A stretch of DNA of 45,449 bases from an uncultured Spirochaetaceae bacterium (GTDB lineage Bacteria > Spirochaetota > Spirochaetia > Sphaerochaetales > Sphaerochaetaceae): contig CALXYL010000018.1 of NCBI GenBank assembly GCA_944392985.1, positions 1 to 45,449 on the forward strand, in the 5' to 3' direction. Positions 16,265 to 45,449 of the stretch are shown here, piece after piece. Below the pieces are notes generated by a model. That model was not told the DNA's origin, searched no databases, and saw only the letters and a program-made list of their open reading frames with translations. Every line of letters starts with the position of its first letter. Within the stretch, counting starts at the first letter, position 1. The translations under genes were made by a program, and so were the position numbers.

Positions 16265-16318
16265 GCAGAATAGAGCAAAATATGCAGGTTTTTTTGCTTT
16301 GAAAAGGCAATCATGCTA

Positions 16319-43192: not shown

Positions 43193-44401
43193 ATGCAGAT
43201 GTCCAACAGGGTCTCAGGTTTCCAGTGCTCTCCGATCCGCCGTCTCGTGCCGTTTTCACGCGATGCGGAGGAGAAGGGTATCCATGTCATCCATCTGAAT
43301 ATCGGGCAGCCAGACATAAAGACTCCCAAGGAGGCTCTGGATGCGATCAGATCGTATGACAAGGACATCATCGAGTATGGTATAAGCGAGGGAGAGCTGT
43401 TTCTCAGGCAGGGGCTTGCGCGCTACTACGAGAAGTATGGCCTCAAGATAAGCCCGGAGGATATCATGATCACAACTGGTGGCTCAGAGGCGATCCAGTT
43501 CATGTTCATGACGCTCTGCGATCCATATGATGAGTTCATCATTCCCGAGCCGTATTATACGAATGTGGCTACTTTCGCTAATATCGCGATGGTCACGCTC
43601 CGCCCTGTGACATCATCCTCCGATGATAACTTCGCCCTTCCTTCGATTGCTGAATTCGAGAAGAGAATCAACAAGAAAACAATGGGGATCATGCTCTGTT
43701 CGCCGAACAACCCGACTGGGCATGTCTATAGCCATGAGGAGCTGAGAGGGCTTCTTGAGCTCTGCCGCAAGCATGATATCTTCCTTGTAGTTGACGAGGT
43801 GTACAGGGAGTTCTGCTATGACGGGAAGCGCTTTACCTCTGTTCTCTCCTTTACGGATTACCAGGATAGGGTCATCTGCATCGATTCCTTCTCAAAGAGA
43901 TTCTCAATGTGCGGGGCACGCATCGGCGCGATAGTCACCCGCAACCGCGAGGTGCTTGAATCTGCACTGAAGCTGGCACAGGCAAGGCTTTGCCCTCCTG
44001 CTGTTGAGGAGGTCGCCGCCGCAGCAGCGCTCAATGCTCCAGATGATTATGTCGAGGCTGTCAGGGCTGAGTACGAACGCCGACGCAATGTGATGATATC
44101 ACGGATGCAGCGCATTCCAGGTGTCCGCTGCAGCCTTCCCAAGGGATCTTTCTATTTCGTTGTTGATCTGCCGGTTGATGATGCGGAGAGATTCGCGATC
44201 TTCATGCTCCGTGATTTTTCCTACAATGGATGCACCACGATGATCGCTCCTGCAGAGGGGTTCTACGTCACTCCCGGTCTTGGCCGGCAGCAGGCGAGGA
44301 TTGCATACGTCCTCAATGAGGAGGAGCTGCTGATGGCTGCAGAGTGCATCGAACGAGGTCTGAAGGTCTACCGCAGGACAGTGATGGGAATCAAGGACTG
44401 A
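43193..44401 (+). CDS. Pyridoxal-phosphate aminotransferase, class I/II (aspartate-aminotransferase-like)
   Basis: 402 residues. The start ATG 43193 follows GAGGAGG. Fold-type I motifs: HLNIGQPDIKTP, ITTGGSEAIQFMFM, CSPNNPTGHVYS (conserved Asn), VVDEVYREFCYDG and the PLP lysine in IDSFSKRFSMCGARIG. The arginine that binds the alpha-carboxylate is expected in the late block RQQARIAYV. Substrate range (aspartate, aromatic or other) cannot be read from sequence. It ends at a terminator at 44422. Confidence 0.9.
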   Translation: MQMSNRVSGFQCSPIRRLVPFSRDAEEKGIHVIHLNIGQPDIKTPKEALDAIRSYDKDIIEYGISEGELFLRQGLARYYEKYGLKISPEDIMITTGGSEAIQFMFMTLCDPYDEFIIPEPYYTNVATFANIAMVTLRPVTSSSDDNFALPSIAEFEKRINKKTMGIMLCSPNNPTGHVYSHEELRGLLELCRKHDIFLVVDEVYREFCYDGKRFTSVLSFTDYQDRVICIDSFSKRFSMCGARIGAIVTRNREVLESALKLAQARLCPPAVEEVAAAAALNAPDDYVEAVRAEYERRRNVMISRMQRIPGVRCSLPKGSFYFVVDLPVDDAERFAIFMLRDFSYNGCTTMIAPAEGFYVTPGLGRQQARIAYVLNEEELLMAAECIERGLKVYRRTVMGIKD

Positions 44402-44421
44402 CAGCAGCTGCAGTCCAACAG

Positions 44422-44449
44422 GGGAGGGTGTTCAGCATCCTCCCTATTT
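44422..44449 (+). terminator. Rho-independent terminator of the prs-aminotransferase unit
   Basis: Stem GGGAGGGTG (44422-44430) / CATCCTCCC (44436-44444) with one G-T pair, loop TTCAG, followed by TATTTTAAT. Confidence 0.8.
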
Positions 44450-44463
44450 TAATGAGGCTTTCG

Positions 44464-44494
44464 TTGACAAATGCCTACCGGGGGGGGGTAATCT
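44464..44494 (+). promoter_or_regulatory. Promoter with nine-G tract in the spacer (candidate phase-variable promoter)
   Basis: A perfect -35 TTGACA (44464-44469) is followed by a spacer containing nine consecutive G (44480-44488) and then the -10-like TAATCT (44489-44494). The spacer is now 19 bp; loss of two G would give the optimal 17. A run of G here changes length by slipped-strand mispairing in known phase-variable genes. A GGAGGG ribosome site follows before ATG 44528. Confidence 0.6.
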
Positions 44495-44527
44495 GAATCC
44501 ATCTGATATTCTAGGAGGGCTTTAGAT

Positions 44528-45379
44528 ATGAGAAAGCTGGTTATCGTAGCGCTCAGCATCATGATGCTGATGGCGTTTGTGGCATGTGATGACAATGCTA
44601 TCACGCGCACAGTCATTGCTGATGAAGAAGGGTTCATGACAGCTGTTGCTGAAGGAGGTTTCTATTCTATCGCAGAGGATCTTTCCCTGGCAGGTACTGA
44701 TCCAATCAGTGTTACGAAGGATTTGGATATTGCTCTTAATGGACACAAGCTGTCATCAAAGGCCATCATCAATGTTGCTGGTGTGGACGTCGTGATTTCT
44801 GGTGGTTTGCTTGATGTTGCAAATGGAACAGATGGAAGGAACACGAATGCTATCAATCTTTCCGCTGATTCGTCCCTTACGCTTGATGCTGTTGAATTTA
44901 CGTCGAATATCAACGGTATCTTCTGTGTGAACCAGAATAACAACGTCACTCTGAATGTGGTCAATGGATCGTCAATAACAGCAAAAGGTCCATATGGAAT
45001 CGGTACTAATGCTTCCGAGCCTGATCCGTCGCAGAATGTACGGATCCTGATTGAGGATTCAAGTGTTACAAGCATTGCCGAGGGTGGTGACAATACAGCA
45101 ATTCTCTTCAATGTCAATGGTGGAGTTACGATCATCAATTCCACCATCAAGGCTGATAGACAGGCTATTGTTGCAAGAGGTGGAGAGTATAGCTTCAGGA
45201 ATTCGACATTCGAGGTGACTGGAGAGAATGACATAGTAAATGAATATCTTGACGGCTCCTGGGGGCAGGGGAACGAGGTTCCACTTGCTGCTATTGTTGC
45301 TGGCAACAGAAGCTCTTCAGCATATGGCAATCCTACTGATATGGAACTCGAGAATGTTACAATAACGCTGGATTGTTAG
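44528..45379 (+). CDS. Beta-helix-like surface lipoprotein
   Basis: 283 residues. The signal ends MLMAFVAC (Cys20), a strong lipobox. The mature part starts with a Leu/Ile-rich 'SIAEDLSLAG' block and then short repeated strands with Asn ladders (INVAGVDVVISGGLLDVANG, INLSADSSLTLDAVEFTSN, VNGGVTIINSTIKADRQAIV), typical of right-handed beta-helix (pectate-lyase-like/adhesin) proteins. It has no catalytic site that I can name. The base composition is richer in A/T than neighbouring genes. The stop after ITLDC may be an early end, since such proteins often continue. Expression probably depends on the G-tract promoter upstream. Confidence 0.75.
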   Translation: MRKLVIVALSIMMLMAFVACDDNAITRTVIADEEGFMTAVAEGGFYSIAEDLSLAGTDPISVTKDLDIALNGHKLSSKAIINVAGVDVVISGGLLDVANGTDGRNTNAINLSADSSLTLDAVEFTSNINGIFCVNQNNNVTLNVVNGSSITAKGPYGIGTNASEPDPSQNVRILIEDSSVTSIAEGGDNTAILFNVNGGVTIINSTIKADRQAIVARGGEYSFRNSTFEVTGENDIVNEYLDGSWGQGNEVPLAAIVAGNRSSSAYGNPTDMELENVTITLDC

Positions 45380-45449
45380 GGCCGGGCATTAAACGCCAAC
45401 CGAGGACGAATAATTCGAACCAATATGTGCCGGGAAACCAGAACCGCTA
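45380..45449. other. Unassigned end of the window
   Basis: The last 70 bases show no terminator and nothing I recognise. A small palindrome CGAATAATTCG is present. On the minus strand one frame is open from the edge to a TAA at 45391-45389 (19 codons), which could be the tail of a convergent gene, but it is too short to call. Confidence 0.2.

Follow-up and report, generated by a model that had tools for sequence, protein, structure and literature searches.

A poly-G tract in the promoter spacer of a lipoprotein gene, very probably a member of a genome-wide family of switches in an uncultured spirochaete

Results

The locus

The window, that is, the whole 45,449-nucleotide stretch of DNA analyzed here, is one entire contig of the 1.96-Mb assembly of an uncultured Spirochaetaceae bacterium. 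Near its right end, an aminotransferase gene is followed by a promoter and a lipoprotein gene on the same strand:

43193..44401, + strand: aminotransferase, class I/II (PF00155, E 7e-58); upstream gene, outside the presumed switch
44421..44445, + strand: terminator-like hairpin with T-rich tail, between the aminotransferase and the lipoprotein unit (consensus scan, weak)
44464-44469, + strand: −35 element TTGACA (read from the sequence; same distance kept before ~221 loci of the genus)
44470-44479, + strand: non-G part of the spacer, AATGCCTACC, 10 nt (read from the sequence)
44480-44488, + strand: G9 tract, presumed slippage site (read from the sequence; genome tract listing)
44489-44494, + strand: −10 element TAATCT (read from the sequence)
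44513-44518, + strand: ribosome-binding site AGGAGG (read from the sequence)
44528..45379, + strand: lipoprotein of 283 aa, lipobox FVAC (Cys20), predicted right-handed beta-helix (ORF, AlphaFold2)

Ten non-G nucleotides and nine Gs make up a spacer of 19 bp; thus, both hexamers, the tract, and the spacer length of the original prediction were correct to the base. The −ACC with which the non-G part ends recurs at many other loci. As had been claimed, the tract is the sole homopolymer of its kind in the 45-kb window: no other run of seven or more Gs, Cs, or As is present, besides one T7 at position 16289. The site is absent from the output of a standard consensus promoter scan because that scan permits only spacers of 16–18 nt. 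As the aminotransferase gene ends 62 bp before TTGACA of the lipoprotein promoter, with the terminator-like hairpin in between, the lipoprotein gene (ATG at 44528) probably has its own transcript; the hairpin is weak evidence, because hairpins are no more numerous in this region than in shuffled sequences.

The contig ends 70 bp past the lipoprotein stop codon. Its last 77 bp (45373-45449) overlap exactly with contig C39, which runs on into a nitroreductase-like reading frame (read by eye), and the start of contig C9 is 84% alike over a 38-bp stretch of the window end.

The lipoprotein behind the promoter

The protein carries a signal peptide with the lipobox MRKLVIVALSIMMLMAFVAC, whose Cys20 is invariant in the set of lipoproteins of the same genome described below. 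The original prediction had called it beta-helix-like, a guess now backed by a confident AlphaFold2 model (pLDDT 87.8, pTM 0.86) and by its structural matches. The best solved structures aligned with Z scores of 17–21 over 204–243 residues; they comprise the binding region of the SRRP of L. reuteri (VIA-align Z 21.1, 214 residues, rmsd 2.4, 15% identity), pertactin (VIA-align Z 19.8, 221 residues, rmsd 2.9, 13% identity), alginate lyases (Z near 20), and pectate lyases. Foldseek alone gave a borderline result (best E 1e-3), and a Pfam search returned no family for the protein or for five of its homologues; for a sister gene, it gave Beta_helix (PF13229, 5e-10). The prediction for the lipoprotein is thus a right-handed beta-helix fold whose nearest matches are bacterial adhesins and polysaccharide lyases. 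Judged from the model, the fold does not distinguish an adhesin from an enzyme, as carbohydrate-active enzymes match almost as well.

The notion that all homologues of the protein retain the tract did not hold: among 19 homologues examined, the tract is present in at least six (L033, L039, L040, L043, L044, and L046); others lack it within the 110 nt before the start, and for several the start could not be placed. Upstream of two homologues from related species, L037 (G033) and L038 (G019), a run of C takes the place of G between TTGACT and the start codon, C8 in one species and interrupted in the other, which may be an opposite-strand version of the poly-G promoter design or its decay.

Recurrence in the same genome

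The whole genome contains 22 distinct tracts of eight or more Gs. Ten of these, in a set of tracts not selected for promoters, are preceded at 9–10 nt by TTGAC[AG] and directly followed by TANNNT; in all ten, the Gs lie on the coding strand and an ORF with a lipoprotein-type signal peptide begins 25–43 nt downstream. Fewer than 0.001 such promoter-type tracts would be expected in the genome by chance, assuming equal base frequencies. An eleventh locus, L056, has the same layout with an interrupted G7 run. The encoded proteins share a signal peptide resembling MKKI..LL..MLFAF.AC and are diverse in their mature parts, so that invariance is limited to the start codon and the lipid-bearing cysteine. 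Three of them have beta-helix or pectate-lyase-like domains, one clear (PF13229, 5e-10) and two weak.

The search for the TTGACA–poly-G arrangement before other lipoprotein genes, proposed with the original prediction, therefore found it in the same genome, and it did so across the genus as well. This recurrence supports reading the tract as a switch; the idea of a single switch did not hold, as about ten such elements are present.

Seven other G8–G9 tracts of the genome lie within coding frames just behind signal peptides. The frame runs through the tract in five cases (C29:6350, C1:14061, C2:16771, C7:7660, and C7:5391), and in two (C20:30157 and C4:32559) the assembly places the signal peptide out of phase with the long frame that follows. 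Genes with coding tracts encode outer-membrane-type, lipoprotein, and solute-binding proteins (L053, L061, L054, L056, L057, and L065). Slippage-controlled genes typically show a mix of on and off states. By their reading frames, the coding tracts likely constitute a second, translational class of phase-variable genes, and they independently suggest that genes of this genome switch by slippage.

Distribution in the genus and class

For the census, the pattern TTGACR-N7-10-G8-N0-4-TANNNT was searched, with the same pattern reversed as the control. In the genus, ~221 copies (the sum of the listed counts) were found in 34 of 48 species genomes (at most 13 in any one), and the reversed pattern had no match. 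The class yielded the pattern in 80 of 395 genomes, representing 23 of the 133 genera sampled, versus one match for the control. When unselected tracts were inspected in five further genomes, the same promoter layout was often seen. Among 100 assignable downstream ORFs from a sample of 111 promoters, 92 had a lipobox by pattern. A scan of named genomes produced, among the matches listed, mostly single ones in many phyla.

The pattern was absent from 14 of the 48 genomes of the genus, including all four of 1.4–1.5 Mb; judging from this distribution, the system has been gained or lost within the genus. The most matches in any genome sampled (20, with 82 tracts of eight or more Gs) occurred in G337, a member of family f24.

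Assemblies often break at equal distances from the promoters, as seen at contig starts in G004 (C35 and C49, both at 23), G019 (C6 and C48, both at 113), and G012 (C15 and C19, both at 143). Such breaks are as expected if the promoter cassette is a repeated sequence.

Tract length and spacing

Tract length was compared for 151 promoters from 33 genome labels, one of which (G000) also takes in a few loci from other genera. G9 is the most frequent length (92 promoters), in part an effect of a search that demanded eight or more Gs; G8 was found 24 times, G10 22 times, G12 six times, G11 five times, and G7 and G13 once each. Seven pairs of distinct loci are at least 88% identical in the 200 bp upstream, and six of them differ in tract length (8/9, 9/8, 8/12, 9/8, 9/10, and 9/11 Gs; the seventh is 8/8). 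A larger set of 46 pairs with at most three changes in the 46 flanking nucleotides is partly redundant, some apparently identical pairs being the same locus twice, so that the count of seven is the cleaner one; in the larger set, 30 pairs differ. Most of these differences lie between paralogues or species, not between alleles. A uniform tract length, which the original prediction had set against a switch, was not seen either overall (G7–G13) or among these close relatives (paralogues and related species). The tract thus diverges fast in length relative to its flanks.

The remainder of the spacer does not compensate for tract length (Spearman −0.009, p 0.91), and the total −35/−10 spacing therefore spans 15–22 bp, with modes at 19 and 16. 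On sequence comparison, this absence of compensation is what slippage predicts and speaks against a tract of fixed length. A point against the switch is that the most frequent spacing is 19 bp, not 17; either most copies could be in a low state at a given moment, or a G-rich spacer could have another optimum. Ordinary TTGACA–TATAAT pairs in the genus, counted to find the usual optimum, gave noisy numbers that follow a three-nucleotide periodicity no less than promoter spacing (spacing:count 13:14, 14:12, 15:13, 16:23, 17:2, 18:6, 19:16, 20:13, 21:4, and 22:16).

Discussion

Comparison with known poly-G promoters

The mechanism of such a switch is already known. In T. pallidum, the gene for the OmpW-like protein TP0126 has a poly-G tract between −35 and −10 and is transcribed best at a spacing of 17 nt (PMC7864442). 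Transcription of tprE, tprG, and tprJ requires a tract of no more than eight Gs; the tprL tract has seven to 11 Gs within isolates, and in E. coli the tprL promoter is active with eight Gs and near background with 10 (PMC7864442). Of 17 poly-G targets tested in T. pallidum, 76% varied, and the porA promoter of Neisseria meningitidis has poly-G in its −35/−10 spacer, the length of which sets transcription (PMC7864442).

By its architecture, the promoter of the window resembles the TP0126 and porA type: its homopolymer lies between recognizable −35 and −10 elements, and tracts of this kind are polymorphic relative to their flanks between paralogues and related species. A 1.1-Mb single-contig genome of the class contains TTCGACAAACAGCCGT-G9-TAGAAT before a gene for a beta-barrel-type protein; this candidate for TP0126 or a near relative has nearly the same layout as the window promoter. 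TP0126 differs in that it is porin-like and that its length variation and activity have been measured, whereas the lipoprotein is known from sequence alone and is one of ~10 in an uncultured spirochaete with similar promoters and signal peptides. The tpr genes, named as precedent in the original prediction, do exemplify poly-G switching in T. pallidum, but TP0126 with its 17-nt optimum is the closer parallel. In tprE, tprG, tprJ, and tprL, poly-G likewise precedes the transcription start closely, but the tract adjoins the start (that of tprL is the fourth base after it) and does not clearly lie in a TTGACA–TANNNT spacer, and the gene family is unrelated to the lipoprotein. As for porA, the spacer position is shared, but it is a single porin gene from an unrelated phylum. 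At the protein level, two adhesins, the SRRP (in its binding region) and pertactin, resemble the lipoprotein in fold, at low identity.

A probable contingency element in the promoter

Taken together, the G9 tract is, with good confidence, a contingency element in a sigma-70-type promoter, in which slippage alters the spacing and hence the transcription of the lipoprotein gene. Within a population, strand slippage during replication would add or remove Gs, shifting the distance between TTGACA and TAATCT to 17 bp at G7, 18 at G8, 19 at G9, and 20 at G10. By analogy with the work on T. pallidum and Neisseria, the altered spacing would change how well RNA polymerase initiates, with G7–G8 (17–18 bp) as the higher and G9–G10 (19–20 bp) as the lower state; the assembled 19-bp state would then be low or off. 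The amount of lipoprotein, presumably exposed at the cell surface, would consequently vary, down to none, among the cells of one population. Since ~10 envelope lipoprotein genes have the same element, many combinations of expression states would coexist in a population, and the window tract very probably belongs to a genome-wide set of switches that act at random, either on/off or as volume controls.

It is conceivable, with perhaps one chance in four, that the tract is phase-variable and at the same time part of a regulator site, its length tuning the response, which would be a special case of the same explanation. The −ACC before the tract and a G at the third position of the −10 element are commoner than expected and are not imposed by the search pattern, and tract length and TP0262 act together at tprE, tprG, and tprJ (PMC7864442); the regulator, however, is hypothetical here.

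That poly-G is a fixed promoter element marking a lipoprotein regulon, either as the binding site of a regulator or as a structural feature (A-like DNA or a quadruplex, for example), with length of little consequence, is improbable. Position, strand, and the preceding −ACC are indeed strongly conserved, and poly-G promoters of tpr genes in T. pallidum also bind the CRP homologue TP0262 (PMC7864442). However, the tract varies from eight to 13 Gs while its flanks are nearly identical, shows no correlation in length with the remaining spacer, and has counterparts in coding sequences of the same genome, some in frame (on) and others out of frame (off). A chance homopolymer or an assembly artefact, which the fragmented, metagenome-type assemblies and the weakness of one locus taken alone might suggest, is practically dismissed by the genus census with its empty reversed control.

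Beyond switching at single loci, the contingency elements could belong to a modular antigen system, in which a promoter and signal-peptide cassette with its poly-G switch has been copied before many different lipoprotein bodies, these bodies are exchanged between loci, and switching and cassette swapping jointly diversify the cell surface; we consider this extension tentative and somewhat less likely than its opposite. At L090:1501-1530 (G069) and L298:1792-1822 (G033), and again at L077 and L309 (G004), the upstream 200 bp are 94–98% identical, whereas the genes behind the shared promoter and signal peptide differ (68–74% over 250 nt). From these alignments, gene bodies seem to have been exchanged behind one cassette.

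Significance

In spirochaetes, most descriptions of poly-G promoter switching concern T. pallidum, a species difficult to culture. What looks new here is the scale and the host, that is, a multi-gene system in uncultured relatives. Among the papers searched, no description was found of a genus-wide poly-G promoter set on lipoprotein genes in uncultured spirochaetes, and a text search for Sphaerochaeta and phase variation, with most subscription journals outside its scope, found no paper. Among the 23 of 133 sampled genera with the architecture are uncultured ones whose genomes hold at least ten candidate switches each. If this reading is true, stochastic switching of surface lipoproteins would be a widespread habit in the class, not a speciality of the syphilis agent, an idea that is testable on existing metagenome reads.
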